Below the pieces are notes generated by a model, which was not told the origin of the DNA, searched no databases, and was given only the letters and a program-made list of their open reading frames with translations. The position numbers and the translations under genes are program-made. Of a DNA stretch of 64,000 bases, positions 3,305 to 46,740 are shown piece after piece. Source of the stretch: Petasospora fabianii (lineage: Eukaryota > Ascomycota > Saccharomycetes > Phaffomycetales > Wickerhamomycetaceae); assembly GCA_022641835.1 (NCBI GenBank), contig CP048724.1, positions 310,001 through 374,000 of the forward strand, written 5' to 3'. Positions within the stretch are counted from its first letter, which is position 1. Each line of letters opens with the position of its first letter.

Positions 3305-4511
3305 ATGGGTATCAAAGGTATGATATACTCTGTTGGATTATCTACTTTGAGACAATCTTCTAACACTTTAGACAGGCCTCAACAAGCTTCTTACGGAGAA
3401 CGCCCCGCTTGCCTCCAAGTCCTCAGACATAAAGTCATTCTTTGGAAGAAAAGTTGCCATCGATGCCTCCATGTGTCTTTATCAGTTCTTGATTGCCGTC
3501 AGACAGCAGGATGGTCAACAATTGACCAACGACAATGGTGAGACAACCTCGCATCTCATGGGTATGTTCTATAGAACTCTTCGAATGGTGGATCACTCTA
3601 TCAAGCCAGTTTACGTGTTTGACGGAAAGCCACCTGTGCTTAAAGGTGGTGAGCTTGAAAAGCGTCTTGCCCGTCGTGCAGAAGCTAACAAGAGCATGGA
3701 GGCTCTTAAGGAGACCGGTACTGCTGAGGAACTTGCTAAATTCGAGAGAAGAACCGTTAGGGTAACAAGGGAACAAAACGATGAAGCTAAGCATTTGTTG
3801 AAACTTATGGGTATCCCATACGTTGAGGCCCCATGTGAAGCTGAGGCTCAATGTGCTGAGCTTGCTAAAGCTGGTAAAGTATATGGTGCAGCCTCCGAAG
3901 ATATGGATACTCTTTGTTACAAGACCCCATTCCTGCTTCGTCATATGACTTTCTCTGAGCAGAGAAAGGAACCAATCCAAGAGATTGATATCAACAAGGT
4001 TCTCGAAGGTCTTGAAATGGATCAAAAACAGTTTGTCGATTTGTGTATCCTCCTAGGTTGTGACTACTGTGACTCAATTAGAGGTGTTGGTCCTGTCACT
4101 GCATACAAATTAATCAAGGAACACGGCACCATTGAAGGTGTCATTGAGCATATTGAAAGTCTAGGGGAAGATACCAAATACAAAGTGCCCGAAGAGTGGC
4201 CATACGTTGGTGCTAGAAACTTGTTCCTTAACCCAGAAGTTATTCCAGGAAATGAGGTTGAGTTGAAATGGTCTGCCCCAGATGAAGCAGGTTTGATCAA
4301 GTTCATGGTTGAAGAGAAGGGATTCTCCGAGGAACGTATCAAGAGTGGTATCGAAAGACTTAAAAAGGGTCTCAAAACAAGTGCTCAGGGAAGACTCGAT
4401 GGTTTCTTCTCTGTCAGACCAAAGACACCAGAGCAGATCGCTGCTGCCAAGAAGAAGAGACAGGCCGAGGAAGCCGCTAAGAAGAAGGCCAAGAAGATGA
4501 AAAAGAAATGA
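3305..4511 (+). CDS. RAD27: Flap endonuclease FEN1 (one intron)
   Basis: Structure-specific 5' flap endonuclease for Okazaki-fragment maturation and long-patch base excision repair. Exon 1 is 3305-3317, intron 3318-3375 (GTATGA donor, TCTAAC branch, GACAG acceptor), exon 2 3376-4511; joined length 382 residues, as usual for the family. The join restores the invariant N-terminus MGIKGLNKLL. Visible motifs are [51 protein letters not shown] and [14 protein letters not shown], which carry the metal-binding acidic residues and the helix-hairpin-helix. Near the C-terminus GRLDGFF is the PCNA-binding region, followed by a basic tail ([10 protein letters not shown]). A CTG codon falls on the conserved Leu of PFLLRH, supporting CUG = Leu. 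Confidence 0.97.
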
Positions 4512-4688: not shown

Positions 4689-5950
4689 ATGCCTCCGTAT
4701 GTCTGACCCTCTCTCCCTCTCTCTCTAATCACTCAAACTAGAACTCTAACACACTCACCAGAAAGAAACTTACCACTTTCCAGTACACAAAGGTTGCTGG
4801 TCTTAAGCACAAGTTTGGAGCTCACGTTAGTACTGCTGGAGGTAAGTTTCCACATCAGCAATCACGTACTCTCAAAATTGAATGACAAACTAACTCTACT
4901 ACAGGTGTCTCTAACTCTGTTCTGAATGCTAGAAACATCGGTGCCAACAGTTTTGCCCTCTTCCTTAAAAGCCCGAGAAAATGGGACTCACCACCAATAA
5001 GTAAAGAAGAAGAAGACGAGTTCAAAAGACTCTGTGATCTTCACGGATATGACCCCAAGACGTACGTTTCACTATGGTTTACATCCTCCTCTGTCAATTC
5101 TTACTAACCTGTTTTCCCAAGTGATATCCTTCCACACGGATCATATCTCTTGAATCTTGCCAACCCTGACTCTGAGAAGGCTGATAAAGCATACGGTGGT
5201 TTCCTTGACGATCTTCAAAGATGTGAACAGCTCGGCATTGGTCTATACAACTTCCATCCGGGCTCCTCTTTAGACAGTGATCATTCTCAGGCCCTCAAGC
5301 GCCTTGCAGGAAAGATCAATGAGGCCATCGCCGCAACGAGTACTGTCAAGATTGTGCTTGAGAACATGGCTGGTAAGGGGAATTTGATTGGGTCCGACTT
5401 GCAAGATATTAAGGATGTAATCGATATGATTGACAATAAAGATCGTGTTGGTGTGTGTCTGGATACATGTCATGCCTTCTCCGCTGGATATGATATCAGA
5501 ACAGAAGAGTTATTCGACAAGTTCATTGAAAAGTTTGATACTATTGTGGGGAAGGAGTATCTATGTGCTATACATCTTAACGATTCAAAGGCTCCATTTG
5601 CTGCTAATGTGGATCTCCATCAGAAGCTTGGTTTGGGATTCCTTGGTTTGGAGGTGTTTAGGGTTATTAGTAACCATCCACGTCTCGAGGGAATCCCAAT
5701 TGTACTGGAGACACCAGTGGGTAAGGATGAGACATACTGGGGTGAGGAGATTAAGCTCCTGGAGAGTATGATAGGCGCAAAGGCTGATGATAAGGTCGTC
5801 TTGGAGAAGAGTGAGGAATTGGCCAAGCTTGGTGAGAAGGAGAGAAAAGAGCATATGAACAAGTACGAAAAGAAGCAAGAGACCAAGAAACGTAAGGATA
5901 TCAAGGCCGCTGCAGCTCTTGGAGGTGTTAAAAAGAAAGCTAAAAAGTGA
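4689..5950 (+). CDS. APN1: AP endonuclease IV, Apn1 (three introns)
   Basis: Zinc-dependent apurinic/apyrimidinic endonuclease and 3'-diesterase of base excision repair, Nfo family. Four exons: 4689-4696, 4762-4841, 4905-5061 and 5122-5950. All introns are GT-AG (GTATGT, GTAAGT, GTACGT donors; TACTAAC branch in the third). The join gives 357 residues starting MPPKKLTTFQYTKV. Family motifs are FGAHVSTAGGVSNSV, FLKSPRKWDSP, ILPHGSYLLNLANP, YNFHPGSS, LENMAGKG, VGVCLDTCHAFSAGYD, IHLNDSK and PIVLETP, providing the His/Asp/Glu zinc ligands. The lysine-rich C-terminal tail (KRKDIKAAAALGGVKKKAKK) fits the nuclear signal of yeast Apn1. It lies head-to-tail behind FEN1, so two base-excision repair genes are adjacent. 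Confidence 0.96.
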
Positions 5951-6625: not shown

Positions 6626-7165
6626 ATGAGGTTTTCTACTGCTCTTATTTCCACTGCAATTGCCTCTTTTGCCGTTGCAGCTCCTTCCGCTGAGTCCTTG
6701 CCATGGGCCAGGGCCAATCCAAAGGCCATGGCCGCTGCTGAGGCTTATGCTGCTGCTTACGCTGAAGCCGAGGCCATCGGACACGCTGATCCAGAGGCAT
6801 ATGCCCTTGCTGCTTCTGCGGACGACTGTGCCAGTGTCACTTGTCACATGGCATGTGGTTTGATGATTATTGCTGGTCAAGGCTGCTCTGAGAACACCGA
6901 AAACAACTACAACGGACCATACGAGGATGGCTGTCTGTGTGGAAACACCATTACCAGCTTTAAGACCTGGTACAACTCCTGCATGGACTGTGGTTGGACC
7001 TTGTGGAAGTACTACTCTGGTTACTTGGAGAATGCACTTATTCAGTGTGCTGCTGAGAACCCTGACTACCCAGCCACTGAGCCAACTGGTACTTCGAGAT
7101 GTTCCACCACCTTGACAGACTCGTACACAGTGGACACAAACATCAACTACTCCACTTATATCTAA
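6626..7165 (+). CDS. Small secreted ten-cysteine protein, family member A
   Basis: 179 residues; no named family recognised. The signal peptide is MRFSTALISTAIASFAVAAPSAES. An alanine/glutamate-rich pro-like segment follows (LPWARANP, AEAYAAAYAEAEAIGHADPE), then a ten-cysteine domain with landmarks [42 protein letters not shown] and [12 protein letters not shown], ending NYSTYI. There is no GPI signal, transmembrane helix or dibasic site, so the product is probably released or held in the wall by disulfides. The start at 6626 is chosen because it begins the signal peptide; a TATA box (TATAAAT) is near 6550. Paralogues are at 8043 and 15609, a decayed copy at 26408, and the same module caps the adhesin at 9563-12460. 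Confidence 0.85.
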   Translation: MRFSTALISTAIASFAVAAPSAESLPWARANPKAMAAAEAYAAAYAEAEAIGHADPEAYALAASADDCASVTCHMACGLMIIAGQGCSENTENNYNGPYEDGCLCGNTITSFKTWYNSCMDCGWTLWKYYSGYLENALIQCAAENPDYPATEPTGTSRCSTTLTDSYTVDTNINYSTYI

Positions 7166-8042
7166 GCTAGAGCATGTGTATTTCTGTATGAAAGTTTGAT
7201 CTGGCTGTTAAAACACAAATGTAGTACAAACTACCCCTTTCACTAACTTAATGCGCAGGAACAAGGCCCAACTGCATTATTTGTATGTATCTGGGTGTCC
7301 TCCATCACTAGTTCCCCGAGAAGACCGAGCGTACACCTCACGCGGAAACATGCTTGTACAGCACAGAAGGTACTGTCACTGTGTCAATTCTATGAAACAA
7401 GGGTTCTATACAGCAGGTCTCCGAAACCCCCGATAGGTAGCTCGAGGAGAGGAGATAATTGCCGGTGGTGCATATTGGTGCTCGAGCCCATGCGGGTGTC
7501 TTAAAATGAGGTCCCTTGTCCGCTCTTTATCTCCAATTCCCCGATCATACAGAGATCAATTGGAGCCATTGATAGATAGTAACTATACGGAACACTCTAC
7601 TTCATGTCATTAGTCAGTCTCATAATCTATCCAACTGTCAGTGTGGTCTAATTCCCTTCTTTAAGATGGGTCCCGATCTCATCAACTCCGCTGTCACCCA
7701 AGGACACATGTACACCTCGATCCGTTCCTGGTCTTCTCCGCTTCCTCAGCCCCACAGGTAGCATTCATGGATCCGACGCATCTGTGGATGTCATAACATG
7801 CATAATAATGCGTTGTCCACCAGGAGAGGTAGGCCTCGAACTCCAAATTACACTAACTGGAGATTATAATGGGTGCAAAGATCTCCGTCGCCTATCTTGT
7901 ACTACTCAAGGACGGCCCAATTGACACTACCCGGTTAAACACCCGACATTACCCATCTTTGATTATAAAAGGGGGTTCAGAGTCCCCTTTCTTGAAGACA
8001 TCTTTAGCACCTTTTGTCACTCACTATCATCACCACAACATA
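7166..8042. other. Intergenic region and promoter of family member B
   Basis: No convincing gene. The last 100 bases hold a TATA-like element (GATTATAAAAGGGG, about 7961-7974), about 70 bp upstream of the 8043 start. Short open frames lack homology or credible codon use. Confidence 0.5.
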
Positions 8043-8579
8043 ATGAAGTTCTCCACTGCTATCCTCACCGCTGCCATCGCTGCCATCGTCACTGCTGCTC
8101 CATCTGCCGAAGCTCTCCCATGGGCCAAGGCAAACCCACAGGCCTCTGCTGCTGCTCAGGCCTATGCTGATGCCTTTGCTGAAGCTGTCGCCATCGGCCA
8201 CGCTGACCCAGAGGCCTACGCTCTTGCCGCTTCCGCTGATGACTGTGCCACCATTGCCTGTCACGCTGCCTGTGGTCAGATGATCATCGCTGGTCAGGCT
8301 TGTTCCCAGGGTGGAGATGATACCTATACTGGCCCATACACCGAGGGTTGTCTCTGTGGATCATCTGGCACTGACTTCTTGTCCTACTACGACGCATGCA
8401 TGGACTGTGGTTGGACTTTGTGGAAGTACTACTCTCCTTACTTGTCCGATGCTTTGGTTGAGTGTCACTCTGAGGACTCCCAATACTCTACTGAGCCAAC
8501 CGGTACCTCGAGATGTTCCACCACCTTGACTAATTCTTACACTAAGGACACTAGTATCAACTACTCAACTTACGTTTAA
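8043..8579 (+). CDS. Small secreted ten-cysteine protein, family member B
   Basis: 178 residues, same architecture as the 6626 gene: signal peptide MKFSTAILTAAIAAIVTAAPSAEA, spacer with LPWAKANPQ and [17 protein letters not shown], and ten cysteines in the same order ([51 protein letters not shown]), ending NYSTYV. The frame is open further upstream, but the ATG at 8043 is chosen because it starts the signal peptide and follows a TATA box at normal distance. Bases 8127-8299 are identical to 15693-15865 of member C, while the 3' halves differ. No catalytic motif is seen; a structural or binding role outside the cell is inferred. Confidence 0.85.
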   Translation: MKFSTAILTAAIAAIVTAAPSAEALPWAKANPQASAAAQAYADAFAEAVAIGHADPEAYALAASADDCATIACHAACGQMIIAGQACSQGGDDTYTGPYTEGCLCGSSGTDFLSYYDACMDCGWTLWKYYSPYLSDALVECHSEDSQYSTEPTGTSRCSTTLTNSYTKDTSINYSTYV

Positions 8580-9562: not shown

Positions 9563-12460
9563 TCAAGCAAGGAACAAAAGGGCCAAAACACCAGCGACAG
9601 CAGTACTGACAGCACTCAGCTTAACACCAGCGCCTTCAAATGTAGACACCGTGGCCACAGTAGAGCTAGGGCCAGAGCCATGGCCAGAGCCAGAGGTAGT
9701 AGCCTCACCAGAAGAGGCGCCACCTGCTGGTGTGATGGTGGACGTAACAGCAATAGTGGCCGTTGATGTTCCCTCCTCTTTACCACCAGTGGTAACAGCA
9801 GAAGCACCAGTAGAGCCAGCAGCATGGGTAGACTCACCGGTAACCTCAGAACTCAATGGGCAGTAAGTGGTGTAAACAGTCTCAACACCACCCTCAGTAG
9901 TGGTGACAACAGTGACTCCAGTAGTCACAGCTGTCTCGGTACAGCTGTCAGCATCACAGGATGTCACGGTCACAACAGTGGTAGATGGCTCATCATTGCC
10001 CTTCTGGCCGTCTGTGCTGGTAGGCAATGGGCAGTATGTGGTGTACTCAGTGACGACACCGCTGGATGTGGTGGTCACAACGGTGACACCGGTCGTGACT
10101 GGGGCCTCGGTACAAACATTATCAGAGCAGGATGTAACGGTGATCACGGTAGTGGAAACCTGGTCCTCGGTAGTGGTGGATGTGGTATTGCTAAAGCCGG
10201 GGGAAGACTCAACAGTTGACGACTCAGCGACTGAAGACTCTGACTCAGCAGCAGAAGACTCAACGGCAGAGGATTCAGCAGCAGAGGACTCGATAGCAGA
10301 AGACTCAACAGCAGAAGACTCGATAGCAGAAGACTCAACAGCAGAAGACTCAACGGCAGAGGATTCAGCAGAAGAGGACTCAACAGCAGAAGACTCAACA
10401 GCAGAAGACTCAACGGCAGAGGATTCAGCAGCAGATGAAGGTGTGATATCAGAAGCAGTGGAGGAAGAAGAACGCTCCTCAGATGAAGCGATGCCATCTG
10501 AAGAAGAAGCATCAGCTGTGATGGTGTCGGACAAGTCAAAGGAGATGGTGGCTCTCTTGACGAGCTTCGTACCGTCTGCTGTGGTAACCTCGATGTGACC
10601 ATTGATGGTCCAAGCACCTCCGCCCGTGGCCAACGCAGAAATGTCAATGGTTACCGGATCGTTTGGACCAACAGCGTAATCAATGGTGATGCTCACAGAA
10701 TCATCAGTGATGGTGATATCAGTACGCGACGTGACATCGATACCACGAACTTCAACATCGGTAGACTTGAAGTCAAATTCTGGGTTCTCTTCACCCCTAG
10801 AGAGAGCAACGGTAACAGATGTCCATGGCCCAAGCTGGCCCGGAATAGTAAGAATCCAATTCAAATTGTCACCATTGCTGGAACCTTCAAATGATGGCTC
10901 AACAGCTGCAGAGGAAGAGACAACGGCAGAAGAAGAGGAAGCCTCATCAGCAGAGGACTCAATAGCAGAGGACTCAATAGCAGAGGACACAACAGTAGAA
11001 GAGTCGGCAGCAGAAGAGGAAGCAGCGGAAGAAGATGAGACCTCAACGGAAGATGAATCGGTGGCAGAAGAAGAGGTCTCAACAGAAGAGGAAGTAGCTC
11101 CCGTGGATGACGATAACGATGTGGAAGATGACTGCTCTGAGCTGAAAGATGAGATTGACGCACTAGATGTGTCCATCGATGAGAACTCAGAAGACTCAAT
11201 GGCAGCATTCGGCCTGAAAACAACGTCCTGTGACCATTGCTCCTGACTATTACAATTATACCAGTATCCATAGACTCCGATTGCAACACATGAGTCGTAA
11301 CCTCGATCGTATGTAGTCAAGGTGAGAGTGAGTCTGGATGTTGAACAAGAGTATGAGTACAACACAACGGTTCCATTAGCCAACTCAACTCTAAACATGT
11401 AACCTGAGGCTAGTGGAGTGGATGCATTTGTCTCCATAATGAAATAAGCACCTTCTTTCAAGTTGACGTAGAACTCGCCGTCAAGGAGTCTTGCGTCATT
11501 GATTGCGTTAGTGATTTTCTTGGTCCCTGTCAACCATTGGATATCGACAACATCATCACGGTCCTCAGTGAAGTTTGCAAACATGTAAACTCTGTAAGTA
11601 TTCAGTTTAGTCTCAGGGTTCGTATGCTGGATAGTCCAAGAGGTAAAGATGACTGGGATGTCACCATCCATTTTAGTAGAGGCTGTGACAAAACAATCGG
11701 AATCTTCACCACCAGCTGTGTACTCGTAGTGGTAAGAGAGCGGTGTGGTAACGGTGTGAGTCTCAGCAGTGTAGGTAGTATCTGTGAGAGTGTTTGTGTA
11801 TGACGTAGTCGACGATGAGGAAGAAGAGGATGACGAGGATGAGGTGGAAGAAGAGGAAGAAGAGGAAGACGAGGAAGCCGAAGACGAGGAAGACGAGGAA
11901 GAGGTCGTAGTTGTGGTCGTACAGCCACCAGTGTATTCACATGCTTGCAAACCAGTATCAATGGTGTATGAATCAGTCAATGTAGTAGAGCATCTCAAAG
12001 TACCAGTTGGCTCAGTAGAAAGAGTACCACAAGCGGCAAGAGCAGAAGAAACGTAACCACCATAGTACTTCCAAAGTGTCCATCCACAGTTCATACAAGA
12101 TGGGTACTGCTTGACAAACTTGGAGTCATCAGCGCAAAGACAAGTCGTGTTGTAAGGACCAGCGTACTGGTTCTCTTTGTTCTCGGAACAGGCAGAACCG
12201 TAGATGATGAGCATACCACAAGAAGCGTGACATCCGATAGTAGCACAGTCATCCTCGGACGCAGCGAGAGCATAGGCCTCTGGATCTGGATGGGCAATAG
12301 CAACAGCCTCAGCATAGGCGTCAGCAAAGGCGACAGCTGCGGCTGCTGCTGCTGGGTTAGCGTTGGCCCATGGGAGTGCCTCTGGCTGAGGAGCAGGAGC
12401 TGCAGCACCAAGAGCCATGGCTCCTGATACTGCAACACCAATTAAGCGAGTGAATAGCAT
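9563..12460 (-). CDS. GPI-anchored adhesin-like wall protein with ten-cysteine N-terminal module
   Basis: 965 residues. Order of parts: signal peptide ([21 protein letters not shown]); the same spacer plus ten-cysteine module as the small secreted proteins ([51 protein letters not shown]); a poly-Ser/Thr stretch; a globular region of about 200 residues ([17 protein letters not shown] to [10 protein letters not shown]); Ser-rich linker; a second folded region ([18 protein letters not shown] to [11 protein letters not shown]); an [10 protein letters not shown] repeat stalk; two flocculin-like repeats (VTSC...[10 protein letters not shown]...VYTTYCPL); and a C-terminal hydrophobic tail ([12 protein letters not shown]) typical of GPI attachment. 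This is adhesin/flocculin architecture on the cell surface; the ligand is unknown. A TATA element on this strand lies near 12530. It sits between members B and C, in opposite orientation. Confidence 0.88.
10205..10440 (-). repeat. ESSA(V/I/A) 15-bp coding tandem repeat
   Basis: About fifteen copies of a 15-bp unit encoding Glu-Ser-Ser-Ala-Val/Ile/Ala form a serine-rich stalk in the adhesin. Such intragenic repeats commonly change copy number in yeast adhesins. Confidence 0.85.
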
Positions 12461-15608: not shown

Positions 15609-16142
15609 ATGAAGTTCTCCACTGCTATTCTCACCGCTGCCATCGCTGCCATCGTCACTGCTGCTCCATCTGCTGAGCCTCTTCCATGGGCTAAGGCAAA
15701 CCCACAGGCCTCTGCTGCTGCTCAGGCCTATGCTGATGCCTTTGCTGAAGCTGTCGCCATCGGCCACGCTGACCCAGAGGCCTACGCTCTTGCCGCTTCC
15801 GCTGATGACTGTGCCACCATTGCCTGTCACGCTGCCTGTGGTCAGATGATCATCGCTGGTCAGGCCTGTTCCGAAGGTGAAAACACCTTTGCAGGCCCAT
15901 ACGATGGCAGTTGTCTCTGCGGATCACCTGACACTGAGTTCCTGTCCTTTTATGAGTCCTGTATGGACTGTGGTTGGACTTTGTGGAAGTACTACTCTCC
16001 TTACTTGTCTGCCGCCTTGGCCAAATGCCACGCCGAGGACTCCCAGTACTCCACTGAACCAACTGGTACCTCCAGATGTTCCACCACCTTGACTGATTCT
16101 TACACTATGGACACTGGTATCAACTACTCCACCTATCTCTGA
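15609..16142 (+). CDS. Small secreted ten-cysteine protein, family member C
   Basis: 177 residues: signal peptide MKFSTAILTAAIAAIVTAAPSAEP, spacer with LPWAKANPQ and [17 protein letters not shown], then ten cysteines ([51 protein letters not shown]), ending NYSTYL. The N-terminal half is almost the same DNA as member B (173 consecutive identical bases, 15693-15865). The second half differs at many sites between CSE/CSQ and DCGW, as expected from partial gene conversion or recent duplication with a faster-changing 3' half. No anchor or known domain. Function unknown; extracellular location inferred from the signal peptide and cysteines. Confidence 0.85.
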   Translation: MKFSTAILTAAIAAIVTAAPSAEPLPWAKANPQASAAAQAYADAFAEAVAIGHADPEAYALAASADDCATIACHAACGQMIIAGQACSEGENTFAGPYDGSCLCGSPDTEFLSFYESCMDCGWTLWKYYSPYLSAALAKCHAEDSQYSTEPTGTSRCSTTLTDSYTMDTGINYSTYL

Positions 16143-18949: not shown

Positions 18950-20131
18950 ATGTCGTTCAGCACAAGATTGACACCAATTCCACTCAAGAACACGGATCTC
19001 TTCAAGCCCGTTAAGATCGGCTCTATTGAGCTCGATCACCGCGTTGTACTTGCGCCGCTCACCAGATTCAGAAACGACGATGCCGGTGTCCCAACTGAGA
19101 TCATGGCAGAGTACTATTCCCAGCGTTCTTCAAGACCAGGTACCTTGATTATTACGGAGGCCACCTTCATTAGTAAACAGGCTGGTGGATACCCACATGC
19201 TCCTGGTATTTGGAGCAAAGACCAGGTTGAGGGCTGGAAGAAAGTCCATGAAGCTGTCCACAAGAACAAGTCGTACTCCTTCCAACAGCTTTGGGCTATC
19301 GGAAGACAGTCTAATCCTGAACAATTGAAGAAGGAAGGATCTCCTTTTGTTAGTGCAAGTGACATTTATATGGATGATGCCTCCAAAAAGGCCGCTCTGG
19401 AGGCTGGTAACGAGTTGAGAGCTTTGTCCAAGGATGAGATCAAGCAGTACATCAAGGACTATGTCACTGCTGCCAAGAACTCCCTCGAAGCTGGTGCTGA
19501 TGGTGTTGAGCTCCATTCTGCTAATGGTTACTTATTGAACCAATTCTTAGACTCCTTGTCCAACAAGAGAACTGATGAGTATGGTGGAAGCATTGAGAAC
19601 AGGGCTAGATTTACCCTCGAGGTTGTTGACGCCTTGATTGAAGCTGTCGGTGCTGACAAGGTTGGTATCCGTCTTTCACCATTCGGTACCTTTGGTACAA
19701 TGTCTGGTACCAGTGACCCATTGTATCTTTCCGTGTATGCTTACGTTGTCGGTCAGTTGGAGCTTAGAGCACAGAAGGGAAACAGACTCGCATACATCCA
19801 TGTTGTAGAACCAAGAGTCGCTAACTTGGCTTTCCAAGAAGGTGAAGGTATTTCTGATGGTTCAAGTGATTTCATCTACGACATTTGGAAAGGACCTGTG
19901 ATCAGAGCTGGTGACTACGCCTTGAACCCTAAGCTTGCCGCTGAGCACGCTTCCAAGGGAAGTACGCTCATTGCTTACGGAAGAATGTTCATCGCCAACC
20001 CTGATCTCCCAGACAGATTGTACAATGGATGGGATCTTAATGAATATAACAGAGGTACTTTCTACAGCCCTGGTCCTGTTGGTTACACCGACCTTCCAAC
20101 TTACGAGGAGGCTAAGAAGCAACAAGAGTGA
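18950..20131 (+). CDS. OYE2: NADPH dehydrogenase, Old Yellow Enzyme (copy 1 of 3)
   Basis: 393 residues. FMN-dependent NADPH:enone reductase that reduces activated C=C bonds and detoxifies electrophiles such as acrolein. FMN-binding barrel motifs: LAPLTRFRN (Thr38, equivalent of OYE1 Thr37), PGTLIITEATF, QQLWAIGRQ, GADGVELHSANGYLLNQFLDSLSN (His189/Asn192 for substrate, Tyr194 proton donor), RTDEYGGSIENRARFTLEVV, IRLSPFGTF, GDYALNP and YGRMFIANPDL. All catalytic positions are intact. The frame is open upstream to 18857, but the ATG at 18950 matches family N-termini and sits correctly behind the TATA box. First of three tandem paralogues on the same strand. The symbol is by family; S. cerevisiae OYE2/OYE3 are not one-to-one. 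Confidence 0.93.
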   Translation: MSFSTRLTPIPLKNTDLFKPVKIGSIELDHRVVLAPLTRFRNDDAGVPTEIMAEYYSQRSSRPGTLIITEATFISKQAGGYPHAPGIWSKDQVEGWKKVHEAVHKNKSYSFQQLWAIGRQSNPEQLKKEGSPFVSASDIYMDDASKKAALEAGNELRALSKDEIKQYIKDYVTAAKNSLEAGADGVELHSANGYLLNQFLDSLSNKRTDEYGGSIENRARFTLEVVDALIEAVGADKVGIRLSPFGTFGTMSGTSDPLYLSVYAYVVGQLELRAQKGNRLAYIHVVEPRVANLAFQEGEGISDGSSDFIYDIWKGPVIRAGDYALNPKLAAEHASKGSTLIAYGRMFIANPDLPDRLYNGWDLNEYNRGTFYSPGPVGYTDLPTYEEAKKQQE

Positions 20132-20789
20132 TGGAGTGATGAATATGATCATTTAGACCTTAATAGAAACAAATAGATTGCATTTCAATGTATTAGAGTA
20201 TTATTTGTAGAAGGCAAGGCTTTTCAGGGGGGCACTGCAAATCCTGAAAGCGGATTTGTAGAAACGCGGCACGTTTCTTTTGACTACGAGCGGGATTATG
20301 CTCCGCAGTGGTGGGTCAAAGTATAGGAGCACACCCGAACCGGGGTTCTGGAGTGTTAAGATAGCTTTAGGGGCTTAGAAATAAATATACATGTTTTATA
20401 GCTACTGCTTTCTAAGATTATGTAGTTTTAATCCCGAAGTCTTGCTCCTTTCCTTTTTAATTAATTGCTATACAAACATGTCTCTGTTCAGGTTCGAACG
20501 GGATGGCCATTTTTTACGAGAGCGCCCAATTGCGAGATGAAATGGAGGCGCATATCCTTGCATAAGTCTTTTGTCAGCTTGCAATAGCGCCACTCTAGAG
20601 ATGCTCTTCATTGGCCAGAGTGGTGCTGTTGTCTGCAGCTCTTTGCAAGTCCCATCGGTCTTCGGTCCGAAGATGATTCCACCGACAGGGTGCTCTTAAA
20701 CTCATTTAAACCTCAAGGTTGCCCTCTTTGGGCCTGCAGACCTTCCTTATTTCAAACTAGAATCACACGCAATTCATACACAACACACA
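20132..20789. other. Intergenic OYE copy 1-copy 2
   Basis: No gene seen. AT-rich stretch near 20380-20480; promoter of copy 2 presumed within the last 200 bases. Confidence 0.5.
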
Positions 20790-22043
20790 ATGTCTATGAA
20801 CTTCAGAGAGGGTTTCGAGCCTGTTGCACTTAAGGACACAAATGTGTTCAAACCAATCAAGGTCGGTAACATTGAACTCAAGCACAGAGTTGCCCTTGCC
20901 CCACTGACAAGACTCAGAAACACAAATAACCTTCCTGGCCAGTGGTCAGTGGAGTATTACGATCAAAGATCCAAATACCCAGGAACCCTTATCATCACTG
21001 AAGGAACCCTCATATCTCCAGAGTATGGTTCTGGTCCACCAAACGTTCCAGAGATTTCAACTGATGAGCAAGTTGAAGCTTGGAAACCAATCCATGATAA
21101 GATTCACGAGAATGGCTCTTATTCCTTCCAGCAACTCTGGGCCTTAGGTAGACAATCCTACCCACAAATTCTCAAACAGAGAGGATTGCAGTTCATATCC
21201 GCTTCTGATGGAGTTTACATGGATGAGGAGACCGAAAAGGCTGCGAAGGAATTCGGTACTCCATTGCACGGTTTGACCAAGGCTGAAATCAAAGAGTGTG
21301 TTGAACACTATGTCAGAGCTGCTAAGAACTCTTTGAAGTCCGGTGCTGATGGTGTTGAGCTGCATTCTGGTAACGGCTACTTGCTCAATCAGTTCATTGA
21401 CCCAATGTCAAACAAGCGTACCGATGAGTACGGTGGTTCCATCGAGAATAGAGCTCGTTTGACCTTGGAGGTCCTCGATGCTCTTATTGATGCAGTTGGA
21501 CCAGACAAAGTCGGTATCAGATTCTCTCCATGGGGTACTTTTGGTGACATGACCGGCCACAAAGATCCAACTATCTTTGCCCAGTATGCCTACCTTATTG
21601 CTGAGATTGAGAACAGAGCTCGTAAGGGTAAGAAAATCGCATACATTCACCTCATTGAGCCAAGAGTTCCAGATATGAGTTATGCTGAAGGTGAATACAC
21701 TGTTCCAACTGGTTCCAATGATTTCATCTACTCCATCTGGAACGGTACTGTCATCAGAGCCGGTGACTACGCTCTCCATCCAGAGCAGGCCAAGATCGAC
21801 ACTGAGAAGCACGAGACTTTGCTTGCCTACGGAAGAATGTTCATCTCCAACCCAGATCTTCCAAAGAGACTCTACGAGGGCCAGCAACTCACACAATATG
21901 GCCGTGGACACTTCCACAGTGCTGAACCATACGGTTACATTGACTACCCAACCTATGAGGAAATTGAGAAGAACGGGTTCCCACAGCGTGAGAAGAAGGA
22001 GGATGGTCCAGGTTACACCGAGGCACTCAAGGCCGTTCAGTAA
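20790..22043 (+). CDS. OYE2: NADPH dehydrogenase, Old Yellow Enzyme (copy 2 of 3)
   Basis: 417 residues, an FMN-dependent ene-reductase like copy 1, with a longer C-terminal tail (about 20 extra residues, EKKEDGPGYTEALKAVQ). Motifs: LAPLTRLRN, PGTLIITEGTLIS, QQLWALGRQS, GADGVELHSGNGYLLNQFIDPMSN (His192, Asn195, Tyr197), RTDEYGGSIENRARLTLEVLDAL, IRFSPWGTFGDM, HLIEPRVPDMSYAEGE, GDYALHPEQ and YGRMFISNPDLP. The active site is complete, so the enzyme should be active. Spacing to its neighbours is 658 and 375 bp, so each copy probably has its own promoter. Confidence 0.93.
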   Translation: MSMNFREGFEPVALKDTNVFKPIKVGNIELKHRVALAPLTRLRNTNNLPGQWSVEYYDQRSKYPGTLIITEGTLISPEYGSGPPNVPEISTDEQVEAWKPIHDKIHENGSYSFQQLWALGRQSYPQILKQRGLQFISASDGVYMDEETEKAAKEFGTPLHGLTKAEIKECVEHYVRAAKNSLKSGADGVELHSGNGYLLNQFIDPMSNKRTDEYGGSIENRARLTLEVLDALIDAVGPDKVGIRFSPWGTFGDMTGHKDPTIFAQYAYLIAEIENRARKGKKIAYIHLIEPRVPDMSYAEGEYTVPTGSNDFIYSIWNGTVIRAGDYALHPEQAKIDTEKHETLLAYGRMFISNPDLPKRLYEGQQLTQYGRGHFHSAEPYGYIDYPTYEEIEKNGFPQREKKEDGPGYTEALKAVQ

Positions 22044-22418
22044 CGACACAACTCAAGTTTACACCATTTATATTTCTTATGGAGTCAACACAATACAATA
22101 TAGCAGATTTGAATCATACTTAATTTTGTTTGTACTCAATCTCGGATTTCACGGCGATAGGCAACAAATTCCGTGAACTCCGATCTCTTCGCCTGACTAA
22201 TTTGGTCGGTATTAGATATGATCTGTGGCTTCAGGCTCTCAGATCGAACCATAACCCCGCTTCGATCCCCGTTTTTGGAGTGTTCATTGATAAGCCATTG
22301 TTACTTTACGACAGATGAGGACAACTATTATAAAATGGCACCTTCATCTCTCAGTTTCGTTGGTAACTAATGGCGCCCTTCGATATGAGATCTGTCATAC
22401 AAAGTTAGCAACAACACC
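22044..22418. other. Promoter region of OYE copy 3 with AP-1-like site
   Basis: No gene. TGACTAA (22194-22200), a form of the Yap/AP-1 site TTAGTCA, lies about 220 bp before the copy 3 start. A TATA-like ATTATAAAATGG is at about 22327. Confidence 0.4.
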
Positions 22419-23621
22419 ATGGCCTTCGTTGAAGACTTTAAGCCAATTCCCCTCAAGGACACTACACTCTTAACTCCAATTACAGTGGGCGCAGTAACTC
22501 TCCAAAACAGAATCGCATATTCCCCATGCAACAGGCTTAGAAACCCCAACTACATCCCATCCGACTTGACCGTTGAATACTACGCTCAGAGAGCTGTCAC
22601 ACCTGGTACGCTACTCATTGCAGAGGGTACTACTGTTTCTCCAAGCGCTGGAGGATACCCTGATTCCCCAGGTATCTGGTCCGATGAACAGATTGCTGCC
22701 TGGAGACGGGTATTTGATGGTGTTCACGCTAGGGGCTCTTTCATCTTTCATCAGATCTTCCATATGGGTAGACAGGCCAGCAGTGCTGATCTTGCGGCTA
22801 AAGGATACAAGTTTGATGGCGTTACAGATGACTTGTACATGGATGAGGCTTCCAAGAAGGCTTCTTTAGCGGCAGATAACCCTCTGAGGGGTCTTACTAA
22901 AGATGAGATCAAAGAAGTGATCAATGACCACGTCCAAGCTGCTAAGAACTCCTTGAACGCTGGTGCTGACGGCATTGAGTTGCATGCTGCGAATGGATTT
23001 TTACACAACCAGTTCCTTGACCCAATCTCCAACCAGCGTACTGATGAGTACGGTGGAAGCATTGAGAACAGGGCCAGGTTTGTATTGGAGACAGTCGACG
23101 CTATTGTTGAAGCTATTGGTGCTGAAAAGCTTGGTTTGAGAATCTCCCCATATGGAACATTTGGCAATATGTCTGGTATTAGTGACCCAAACTATCTAGC
23201 TCAGTATGCTTACCTTGTGGGTGAGTTGGAGAAGAGAGCTTTGAAAGGTAAGAGGCTTGCTTATATCCATATCCTTGAACCTCGTGCTCTGGCTGCCGCT
23301 AATTCAGATGAGGTGGATCCTTCTCTTGAAAACTCTACAGAATGGAGTGACTTCATTTACACCGTATGGAAAGGTGTTGTCATCAGAGCGGGTGATTACG
23401 GCCGTAATCCAGAGGTGGCACAACGTCACTCTGAGAAGCCAAATACTATCATTGCTTATGGAAGATTCTTCATCTCTAACCCAGATCTTGTTGAAAGACT
23501 TCAACATGGTTATAAGTTGACGGCCTACGATAGAAATACATTCTACACTCACACTAAGGAGGGTTACACCGACTACAAGACCTACAAAGAAATCTTGGCT
23601 GATCAGACTGCTGCCAACTAA
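22419..23621 (+). CDS. Old Yellow Enzyme family, copy 3, altered active site
   Basis: 400 residues with an intact OYE barrel: PGTLLIAEGTTVSPSAGGYP, GADGIELHAANGFLHNQFLDPISN, RTDEYGGSIENRARFVLETVDAI, LRISPYGTFGNM, GDYGRNPEV and YGRFFISNPDLVERL. FMN and substrate anchors are kept (His189, Asn192, Arg in LRISP). Three active-site positions differ from copies 1-2 and from OYE1. Tyr196, the proton donor, is Phe194. Thr37, which tunes the flavin, is Asn38 (YSPCNRLRN for APLTR). Trp116 is Phe in HQIFHMGRQ. The family knows the Tyr-to-Phe change as slowing alkene reduction while leaving flavin reduction, so a different substrate or oxidase-like use is possible (inference). The frame shows no sign of decay, so it is probably a functional divergent paralogue. 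Confidence 0.9.
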   Translation: MAFVEDFKPIPLKDTTLLTPITVGAVTLQNRIAYSPCNRLRNPNYIPSDLTVEYYAQRAVTPGTLLIAEGTTVSPSAGGYPDSPGIWSDEQIAAWRRVFDGVHARGSFIFHQIFHMGRQASSADLAAKGYKFDGVTDDLYMDEASKKASLAADNPLRGLTKDEIKEVINDHVQAAKNSLNAGADGIELHAANGFLHNQFLDPISNQRTDEYGGSIENRARFVLETVDAIVEAIGAEKLGLRISPYGTFGNMSGISDPNYLAQYAYLVGELEKRALKGKRLAYIHILEPRALAAANSDEVDPSLENSTEWSDFIYTVWKGVVIRAGDYGRNPEVAQRHSEKPNTIIAYGRFFISNPDLVERLQHGYKLTAYDRNTFYTHTKEGYTDYKTYKEILADQTAAN

Positions 23622-40695: not shown

Positions 40696-41913
40696 GTTTT
40701 TGAGTGTCATCCTTTATACTTTTTGTCTTTTTTTCAATTCTTGCATCATTACGAGGCAGCTAATGCCTCTGTGATGTATATTCATTCTTTGTCTTGTCAG
40801 ATTTGTTTCATTTCGTTCACTTACTCACTCACTCACTCACTCACTCACATATATACTGACCTCGCCAAATTTTCACATGGGGGTTTTCTTTCTTATATAA
40901 CACACAAAAGGTTGATGTTTAATTCCTATAGATTTCCTTGGGTTTACTTTATATCTTGTAGTTTGTTGAAGAACCCTATACTAAGCTAAGCCCTAGTTTA
41001 TTTCGGCTATAATCGGAGTATACACTTTAGCTTATGTAAGCTCGCGACTACGCGACTACGCGAAAACGTTTTATGCCTGTGCAATGGCCTGATGGGATCC
41101 GCTGCAGGGCGATAACGGCTGAGACGGAGGGATAGGCCAATGGAAGCAATGGGAAATATAAGCGTGTGTGTGTTTATATATTGTAGAGTTGTGTTGATTG
41201 TTTATTAGTTGGTTGGTGTTTGACCGTAGTCAATGGCATCAGAGACCAAAGAGACTGTCCGATATACCCAGTACATCACACCCAAATCATACTCTCAAAA
41301 TAGTGTATATAGCGCACAGCGCACGTCAGGAAGTAAGTCCTCCATCCAGGCGAGGGGTCACGTAACCATCACATCAGCCGATGGGGGAGCGAAGGGCTCC
41401 CCCAATGGCCATACTACGTTAGTCTGTATCTGTGTCTGTATCGTGTTTGTCTCATTGACACCCATATATCTGTTCAATACATATAGACTTTTAACTCATC
41501 GGAACTTTCTTGCCGAGGTTCACGTTAAACGGTTAAAACTCTCCTCTTTCTTACTCCTTCTTTCCTCCCCCCCACGTACAGTTAGGATTCAATGTGGCCG
41601 TAGGGTTGCGAGCCGGCCCCGTTTGAAGAGTTCGCGATTACAGAGAAAGCGATATGATTGGCTCATAGTCAAAGTGTTTACGTAAGCAGTATACTATAGC
41701 TTACACTATGGTGACATAAGCATATCAGGGCTCACAACGCTGGGGTGCAGCGGGAGGTCATTCAACCTTAGGATTTGGACGGCTCGATTATATAAAAGGG
41801 CAGCGTCGGATCCATGCGTTGAAATATCATAACAAAATACATAGAAATTGTCTTGTTATCCCATCACCAACCCAACTCTTGTCGGATCCCACCACATAAA
41901 CACAACCAACACA
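40696..41913. other. Intergenic PHO89-MDH1 with simple repeat, CGCG sites and a doubtful 150-codon frame
   Basis: An (ACTC)n tract lies at about 40819-40848. ACGCGACTACGCGACTACGCGAAAA-type repeats (three CGCGA cores, about 41042-41064) resemble MCB/SCB sites. An ATG frame at 41233-41685 (MASETKETVRYTQYI, one hydrophobic segment LVCICVCIVFVSLTPIYLF) matches nothing I know and contains a GTAAGT at about 41331; confidence that it is a gene is low. The MDH1 TATA box (ATTATATAAAAGG) is at about 41788. Confidence 0.4.
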
Positions 41914-44621: not shown

Positions 44622-44988
44622 GGTCTTATGAAGTCAGGGAGCAAAACACTAAGAGACAGTAAGAAGTAACTCTCTCATCTCATCAAACCATAATCACCCA
44701 TCTCCCATCTCCCAGGTGCACCCATCCACTCAAGAACCACTCGAGATTATAGTTTCTCCACAAAAACCAATCTATTACTTTATCAATCATCACCATGGTA
44801 ACACCCCTTCAAATCTATTACCATGACGATTATTTGCCCGTGAATCTGTCATTTCGGACTTTCAGCGGAGATTAAACAAATCAATGATTGTGACTCGAGT
44901 TTTCCATCTTCGCCACTTTTCTCCCTTGTGCCAAACCCGTTAATTAGCAGCGACGATAGAGAGAGAGAGAGAGAGGATCATCAGAAGT
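44622..44988. other. Divergent promoter between unknown gene and MOCS1
   Basis: 367 bp, no gene. A (GA)n tract (about 44958-44974) is in the MOCS1 leader. No nitrate-regulator site could be asserted. Confidence 0.4.
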
Positions 44989-46740
44989 ATGAAACCAACA
45001 AGTCTCCTGCGACACGCTTCTGCGGCAGCACAGAGTTCACTCACAAATACCGCCTCACGTCGTTGGGACGCTATCAGGAACGCCAAACCGTTATCGCACT
45101 TCCTTACAGACTCGTTTAACCGCACGCACGACTACCTTCGAATTAGCATCACAGAACGTTGCAACTTGAGATGTCTCTATTGTATGCCAGAGGAAGGTGT
45201 TCCGCTTCAGCACGAGGATAAGATCTTGAAGACGGATGAGATTGTCGAGCTGGCGAAGATCTTTGTTAAGCAAGGTGTGAGAAAGATCAGACTCACTGGT
45301 GGTGAGCCTACGATTCGCAAGGATATTGTTGAGATCGTGACGAGATTGGGACAGATCCCAGGTGTGGAGGAGTTGTGTTTGACTTCTAATGGAATCGCAT
45401 TGCATAGAAAGTTGCCAAAGTTGGCACAGGCAGGGTTGACTGCTGTGAATCTATCGCTTGATACTCTTGTCGAGGGAAAATTTGTGATGATCACTAGAAG
45501 AAATGGATTGCAAAATGTGATGAAGAGTTTGGAAACGGCTCTGCAGTTGGGGATCCCAAAAGTGAAGTTGAACGTTGTGGTGATAAAAGGGCTCAATGAT
45601 GATGAAATTCTAAAATTTGTCAGATTGGCTCAGTATTACCCATTAGAGATCAGATTCATTGAATATATGCCATTCGATGGTAACAAATGGGAACTTGACA
45701 AAGTGATGAGCTTCAGTGCAATCATGGATATTATCAGATCCGAGTATCCTGTTGTGAACAGACAGACACACAAGTATGGAGAAACTTCCAAAGTGTTTGA
45801 TATTCCCGGATTTCAAGGCCGTATTGGGTTTATCTCATCCATGACTGATGATTTCTGTGCTGATTGCACCAGATTGAGACTCACATCAGATGGTAACTTG
45901 AAAGTTTGTCTGTTTGATAACGGTGAAGTGTCATTGAGAGACATGCTTAGATCTAATGCTAGTGAGGATGAGATTTTGAACGTTATCGGCAGGGCCGTAA
46001 AGGGTAAGAAGGAGAAACATGCAGATTTAGACGAACTTCATTTGCAAAAGAATAGACCTATGACACTCATTGGTGGGTGAGTTTCCGAATAACAGATAAT
46101 TTTTCCGACAAACTGGTTACTAACAAACATTTTTGCAGGTAATGCTGGACACTACACCACCAAAAGACCAATTACACGTACCCTACCACCATTCATGTTG
46201 GGTGCCATGACCATTAACAACAGTGTTGGGGGTCAACACCTCCGTTTCTACTCTACCAAGCCTCAACTTACACATATAAATGAGAAGGGTGAAGCACGCA
46301 TGGTTGATATCTCCTCGAAGGAGATCACCAAGCGTCGTGCTAGTGCTGAAGGGTTCATTCGGTTTTCCACAACTTTGGCAATCTCTCAAATCACAGAGAA
46401 CACAAACAAGAAGGGCGATGTCTTAAGCATTGCTCGAATCTCTGGAATCTCAGCGATTAAAAAGACCCCAGATCTCATTATCCTATGTCATCCATTACCC
46501 TTGACCAAAGCTGAGATCTCTGTGGAGATTTTATCAGATACGGAGATGAGAGTGCTCAGTACGGCTCATTGTCAGGGAAAGACAGGCGTGGAGATGGAGG
46601 CACTTGTTGGGTGTACTACGGCGCTATTGAACATCTATGACATGTGCAAAGCCGTTGATAAACACATGGTGATTCATGGTGTGAGGGTTTTGAGTAAAGC
46701 TGGTGGAAAGAGCGACTTTGATGTTGCACAGGATAGTTGA
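44989..46740 (+). CDS. MOCS1: Molybdenum cofactor biosynthesis MOCS1/cnxABC-type protein (MoaA + MoaC), alternative splice junction
   Basis: Makes cyclic pyranopterin monophosphate from GTP, the first step of molybdenum cofactor synthesis, in mitochondria. The MOCS1A part (44989-46080) has a presequence (MKPTSLLRHASAAAQSS), radical-SAM cluster Cys58/62/65 (CNLRCLYC), TGGEP, and second cluster Cys290/293/307; it ends LIGG-stop. The MOCS1B/MoaC part (46139-46740) has KGEARMVDIS, LCHPLPLTK, TGVEMEAL and YDMCKAVDK. Acceptor TACTAAC...TTTTTGCAG ends at 46138. The donor GTGGGT at 46073 gives one 561-residue fusion (LIG-NAGHY). The canonical GTGAGT at 46077 gives LIGG then TAA. Unspliced RNA gives LIGG then TGA. 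Presequence-like LRFYSTKPQ starts the MoaC part, so internal cleavage or separate initiation at 46195 is possible. Confidence 0.9.

Follow-up and report, generated by a model that had tools for sequence, protein, structure and literature searches.

How one gene might supply both a MoaA-type protein ending in Gly-Gly and a MoaA-MoaC fusion in which that end is lost is the question raised by a locus within a 64 kb stretch of DNA (44.9% GC by computed base composition), referred to here as the window, whose genes and introns read as those of a budding-yeast-like genome. The original prediction placed the choice in a single intron with two overlapping donors at the codons for Gly-Gly.

Domain organization of the locus

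The upstream open reading frame (44989..46080, + strand) encodes a MOCS1A or MoaA-type protein of 363 aa that ends in Leu-Ile-Gly-Gly-stop when the intron is retained. It scored 368.5 bits against the TIGR02666 moaA equivalog model (cut-off 284.05), with model positions 1-336 of 336 aligned to residues 39-363. Exon 2 (46139..46740, +) encodes a linker followed by a MoaC domain (MOCS1B), which was matched by the Pfam MoaC model at residues 416-551 of the fusion with 165 bits. An in-frame ATG at 46195 is a candidate internal start for a MOCS1B ORF of 181 aa (46195..46740, +), and the ORF from this ATG spans the whole TIGR00581 moaC equivalog model (1-148 of 148; 183.9 bits, cut-off 141.5) and matched PDB 1ekr/4pyd at E = 1.3e-41. 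The domain order along the fusion is Radical_SAM, Mob_synth_C and MoaC. Within a 23-row alignment, consisting of the window protein and 22 loci from the best 80 of 485 bacterial relatives, residues Cys58, Cys62 and Cys65 (CxxxCxxC) and the C-terminal Cys290, Cys293 and Cys307 are invariant, and we take these to be the cluster ligands of a radical SAM protein. The promoter stretch (44622-44988) contains one GATAA-type site, which is uninformative. A scan of viral contigs returned four pattern matches and no relative of the locus.

Two candidate donors overlap the Gly-Gly end

Catalysis by MoaA needs a free Gly-Gly end, and the motif is maintained among the bacterial relatives. Both glycines are invariant in the 23-row alignment, and MoaA ends in Gly-Gly-stop at 80 of 80 bacterial loci (the best 80 of 485 relatives); with a stricter pattern 66 of the 80 were readable, all of them Gly-Gly, and 14 were missed by that pattern. 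The Gly-Gly motif has also been described as functionally relevant (PMC7232280). In the predicted structure of the A form, confidence is low along the C-terminal tail (block pLDDT of 66, 53 and 44), and the model is therefore uninformative about Gly-Gly.

Read base by base, the end of the A frame consists of ATT (46069-71), GGT (46072-74), GGG (46075-77) and TGA (46078-80), the last three being Gly362, Gly363 and the stop (46072..46080, +) and overlapping both candidate donors. Donor D1, GTGGGT (46073..46078, +), lies in phase 1 as G|GT within the first Gly codon and would give the fusion, while donor D2, GTGAGT (46077..46082, +), shares two bases with D1 and would give Gly-Gly-stop. The two GT donors are mutually out of frame. 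The coordinates originally predicted for ATT GGT GGG TGA (46069-46080), the donors at 46073 and 46077 and the acceptor end at 46138 proved exact at each base.

Translation of the isoforms reproduced the predicted outcomes of retention or D2 (363 aa ending in Gly-Gly) and of D1 (a 561-residue MoaA-MoaC fusion). The retained form is a 363-aa protein ending in MTLIGG, as is the form spliced from D2 to 46139, in which the stop is a TAA at 46140-46142, and the C-terminal Gly-Gly is thus present in both. The form spliced from D1 to 46139 is a 561-aa fusion containing MTLIGNAGHYTTKRP, with Gly-Asn replacing Gly-Gly, and D1 splicing would, as had been proposed, drop the second Gly and fuse MoaC. The further proposal that 46138 is the only acceptor did not stand, as an alternative AAG (46164..46166, +) also works on paper, joining D2 in frame with MoaC to give a 553-aa fusion that retains an internal Gly-Gly. 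With full-length moaA and moaC models, an intron placed on Gly-Gly-stop and a D1 frame that fuses A to B, the assignment to a MOCS1-type locus was upheld; as judged from its sequence, this is a MOCS1/nit-7-type gene with A and B at one locus.

Intron signals and chance expectation

Sequence signals delimit a predicted intron of 66 bases from D1 (46073..46138, +) or 62 bases from D2 (46077..46138, +). Both contain an exact TACTAAC branch site (46118..46124, +) and end at a pyrimidine-rich acceptor, TTTTTGCAG (46130..46138, +), whose terminal CAG is followed by exon 2 at 46139. The frame opened by D1 is exactly that of MoaC, whose model is matched from end to end, and codon usage scored the start of exon 2 as coding in the D1 frame alone (+2.1, vs -2.2 and -3.5), a weak measure at 18 codons. 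The combination of TACTAAC, a pyrimidine-rich CAG no more than 66 bases from D1 and the MoaC frame would be hard to get by chance.

Taken singly, the motifs are common. TACTAAC on its own is not rare, with nine exact copies on both strands of the window against a mean of 5.1 in shuffled sequence, where 10 of 100 shuffles reached nine. Of the 985 GTRA sites on both strands of the window, 74 (7.5%) have a GT directly after them, and a D2-like site is therefore expected about once in 13 given D1. The rarity of the motif was rejected as evidence because the decamer GTGGGTGAGT has a second copy in the window, at 23217 within an uninterrupted ORF (22419-23621), and because GGTGGGT occurs at the Gly-Gly site in 5 of 80 bacterial moaA genes (best 80 of 485 relatives), which are without such introns. 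The ORF carrying the second copy, with its frame intact, is the third of three tandem ORFs at 18950-23621, presumably old-yellow-enzyme-like. Elsewhere in the window, a run of GTGA repeats (40819-40848, -) mimics stacked donor sites.

Within 46069-46163, the donor region could form a duplex with the part of exon 2 immediately downstream of the acceptor (UUGGUGG with CCACCAA). A 101-base stretch picked post hoc from the fold gave z = -1.79, with 9 of 200 shuffles folding as well, and a 171-base stretch gave z = +1.25, with 184 of 200 shuffles folding as well. Given that the fold of the wider stretch is not significant against shuffles, RNA structure over the donors was dropped as evidence.

Donor strength and the constraint of the Gly-Gly codons

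Six further introns were read in the window through protein continuity, in genes that we take to be FEN1 (3318-3375, donor GTATGA), APN1 (intron 1, 4842-4904, GTAAGT; intron 2, 5062-5121, GTACGT) and a short-chain dehydrogenase (28620-28460, -, GTACGT; 27919-27867, -, GTAAGT), together with one of a further gene (57972-57881, -, GTATGT). The FEN1 intron apparently skips an AG near its branch site, and APN1 intron 2 has an apparent AAG acceptor. An intron candidate at 7186 was dropped, as it made no sense as coding sequence. Four secreted-looking proteins (6626-7165; 7869-8579; 9563-12460, -; 15609-16142) share LPWA close to the N-terminus along with a similar domain that bears Cys, and one of them has a long Ser-rich, wall-protein-like tail.

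All six of these introns carry A at the +3 position of the donor, whereas D1 and D2 both carry G. Pairing with the U1 5' end was computed with pseudouridine treated as U. D2 paired more strongly than D1, both in a fixed register (-8.8 vs -5.1 kcal/mol) and as the best duplex (-10.1 vs -9.2 kcal/mol). The fixed-register value of D1 nonetheless lies inside the range of the four window donors scored beside it, those of the six introns other than the two GTACGT sites (-2.9, -5.7, -6.3 and -10.2 kcal/mol). Because D1 pairs with U1 more weakly than D2 and lacks A at +3, its usage may be low.

The sequence of D1 is constrained by what it encodes. Being placed within G|GT GGN TRA, the donor must read GT-GG-N-T, with the G at +3 and +4 taken from the second Gly codon and the T at +6 from the stop, and it cannot carry A at +3 because the same bases must also spell Gly-Gly-stop. 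The sole free base is the third of the second Gly codon, here G, and D1 is therefore as good a donor as the protein allows. GGG, the final Gly codon of the MoaA ORF, is rare (32 of 558 Gly codons, 5.7%, in 18 window ORFs) and is the only Gly codon that places G at both +5 of D1 and +1 of D2. The choice of this codon would fit selection on splicing, a single codon at 5.7% being weak proof.

N-terminal extension and linker

The MoaA model begins at residue 39 and leaves uncovered an N-terminal extension (residues 1-34; 44989..45090, +), a putative mitochondrial targeting sequence. Residues 1-26 contain no Asp or Glu and four Lys or Arg, and pLDDT in the structure model falls below 50 at residues 1-27 and 31-34. 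The hydrophobic moment of the N-terminus was not significant, with 672 of 1000 shuffles as high. Mitochondrial targeting by this extension is possible.

The linker of the fusion (residues 363-403; 46141..46263, +) lies within a stretch of 60 residues without Asp or Glu (fusion residues 350-409), which overlaps the first residues of the MoaC homology (QLTHIN). The longest acidic-free run elsewhere is 50 residues, among the 17 other ORFs in a scan of 19 window ORFs (9,476 residues) that counted the A and B halves. Just before the MoaC homology is RFYS (46243-46254, +), which resembles a mitochondrial processing site. The hydrophobic moment of the linker was not significant, being matched in 187 of 1000 shuffles. 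Cleavage of the linker may release B, as it does in Neurospora and, according to excerpts of PMC9607355, in human MOCS1AB.

A model for the switch and alternative readings of D2

It is probable that the gene works as a MOCS1/nit-7-type locus, in which retention or D2 yields MOCS1A, D1 yields MOCS1AB, and B is freed in the mitochondria. With the intron retained or cut at D2, translation would stop at Gly-Gly to give an active MoaA-type GTP 3',8-cyclase (MOCS1A), and a cut at D1 would take out the stop together with the second Gly, joining MOCS1A to MoaC (MOCS1AB). Lacking a free Gly-Gly end, the A half of MOCS1AB should have no activity and would carry the fusion into mitochondria; cutting of the acidic-free linker there would free MOCS1B. 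D1 would be the functional donor and an old one, its position and phase homologous to those of the Neurospora nit-7 donor, and its lack of A at +3 may leave some RNA unspliced. D2, if used, would be a second route to the Gly-Gly product. The frames, domains, conserved Gly-Gly and intron signals are read directly from the sequence, and we infer that splicing occurs, that the fused A half has no activity, that the fusion is imported and cleaved, and any regulation. D1 splicing against retention is most likely the working switch, and D2 may be fortuitous, leaky or a genuine switch.

Within this model, that retention and D1 form the whole switch, as in Neurospora, with D2 a chance by-product that is little used or inconsequential, falls just short of an even chance in our estimation. 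Any GTNNGT donor always supplies a GT four bases later, and the frequency of GT after GTRA in the window (74 of 985) and the recurrence of GTGGGTGAGT in the uninterrupted ORF at 23217 show how readily such sites arise; the second Neurospora donor (delta1469), moreover, is dispensable for Moco synthesis (PMC7232280). Among human minor donors, according to excerpts of PMC8055015, the commonest shift is one of four bases and GYNNGY sites increase under an NMD block, and almost half of the tissue-specific coding minor sites break the frame. The sole use of D1 would, however, be hard to explain with D2 the better U1 match. A second version of the model, a true tandem-donor switch with competition between D1 and D2, abundant junctions from each and a ratio set by a factor such as Hub1/Snu66, is tentative and somewhat unlikely. 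It finds its parallel in Saccharomyces cerevisiae SRC1, whose tandem overlapping 5' splice sites shift the frame (excerpts of PMC8431670 and PMC3983031) and follow the same order, the weaker upstream and the stronger downstream. In these excerpts, the upstream SRC1 donor is not used without Hub1 (PMC8431670), or its product drops three-fold (PMC3983031), the wild type shows a 60/40 ratio of short to long form with neither targeted by NMD (PMC3983031), and the legend of Figure 2 gives a distance of 4 nt, though naming a 3' site (PMC3983031). Against control by such a factor, the staggered donors of S. cerevisiae GCR1 are unaffected by Hub1 in the same source (PMC3983031), and tandem donors therefore need not be controlled by Hub1. 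A regulated two-way switch whose spliced products both function as enzymes is unlikely; MOCS1A would there come mainly from D2 in place of retention, D1 would give MOCS1AB, and GGG, as +5 of D1 and +1 of D2, would hold Gly-Gly and the splice choice in the same bases.

Two further readings give D2 the leading part. D2 might be the main donor and MOCS1B be made unfused, with translation starting internally, or restarting, at the ATG at 46195 and with the linker as its targeting sequence. The in-frame ATG and its 181-aa ORF, the absence of acidic residues from this ATG to the MoaC homology and the RFYS near the MoaC start are consistent with this, as are the bicistronic expression discussed for Aspergillus nidulans cnxABC, as described in PMC7232280, and the trace re-initiation reported for a human MOCS1 mutant in excerpts of PMC9607355. 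In Neurospora, however, NIT-7B on its own stayed outside the mitochondria, and its combination with NIT-7A fell short of wild-type-like growth (PMC7232280); here the D1 frame has no stop ahead of the ATG and scores there as coding, which makes an unfused MOCS1B improbable. Joining D2 to the AAG ending at 46166, to give the 553-aa fusion with its internal Gly-Gly, would be in frame and would use an acceptor like that of APN1 intron 2, but a CAG suitably positioned downstream of the branch site would have to be skipped, and in APN1 intron 2 the AAG is the first AG past the branch site; this arrangement is very improbable.

Comparison with known systems

The closest precedent found is Neurospora crassa nit-7 (PMC7232280), a single locus for A and B in which Gly-Gly is encoded at the start of intron 1. 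Unspliced RNA gives NIT-7A, removal of 1460-1696 gives NIT-7AB, and 1469-1696 is missing from a third form; Moco synthesis depended on the 1460 form and could do without the 1469 form. Nitrate induction raised unspliced nit-7 RNA. Wild-type-like growth was restored by NIT-7A with NIT-7AB and not by NIT-7A with NIT-7B. B was freed from AB in mitochondria after import, and separately expressed NIT-7B failed to enter them (PMC7232280). Table 1 of that work lists NIT-7A as 1-1467, its eGFP fusion as 1-1464, and the donor mutants 1461T>C and 1470T>C. From these coordinates it can be deduced that the nit-7 donor at 1459|1460 is G|GT GGN stop, in the same codon and phase as D1, and that the 1469 donor, like D2, leaves Gly-Gly-stop intact.

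Both genes encode Gly-Gly and the stop in the first bases of an intron whose retention gives, or here would give, the A form and whose splicing the AB form, and both have a second, downstream donor, a candidate one here, that keeps Gly-Gly-stop. They differ in the spacing of the donors, nine bases apart in Neurospora and four, with overlap, here; in the intron, 237 bases compared with 66; and in the linker, about 135 residues by coordinates compared with about 41. The idea that the arrangement is new for fungi is accordingly set aside, since intron position, phase, outcomes and second donor are all present in Neurospora (PMC7232280). The match in position and phase suggests a great age for the Gly-Gly-stop intron in fungal MOCS1; it perhaps arose before Saccharomycotina and Pezizomycotina separated, and would then have persisted in a lineage noted for intron loss.

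In mammalian MOCS1, splicing at the end of the A frame likewise gives MOCS1A or a MOCS1AB fusion, which is cleaved to free MOCS1B, as described in excerpts of PMC9607355 and PMC3034695. The mammalian gene differs in having many exons (ten in human) and another exon structure, and the passages on splicing in these two sources describe no intron retention. A. nidulans cnxABC, through its description in PMC7232280, is a nit-7 homologue that also supplies both domains from one locus. Moco genes do not imply nitrate use, because Komagataella phaffii has homologues of six of them and yet no nitrate assimilation, according to excerpts of PMC8709784. Among the matches listed, titles and abstract openings contained no report of MOCS1 splicing in a budding yeast.

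SRC1/HEH1 resembles the present locus in that overlapping tandem 5' splice sites alter the frame and the end of the protein, and in SRC1 the wild type uses both (excerpts of PMC8431670 and PMC3983031). It encodes an unrelated protein, with no Moco enzyme, Gly-Gly end or domain fusion. Each half of the arrangement, the Gly-Gly intron and the tandem donors, therefore has a precedent; what is new is that the two meet at one codon. Should both donors be used, the locus would join SRC1 as a natural budding-yeast tandem-donor switch with two functional products, and would offer a small, easily mutated case for how the spliceosome chooses between donors four bases apart.
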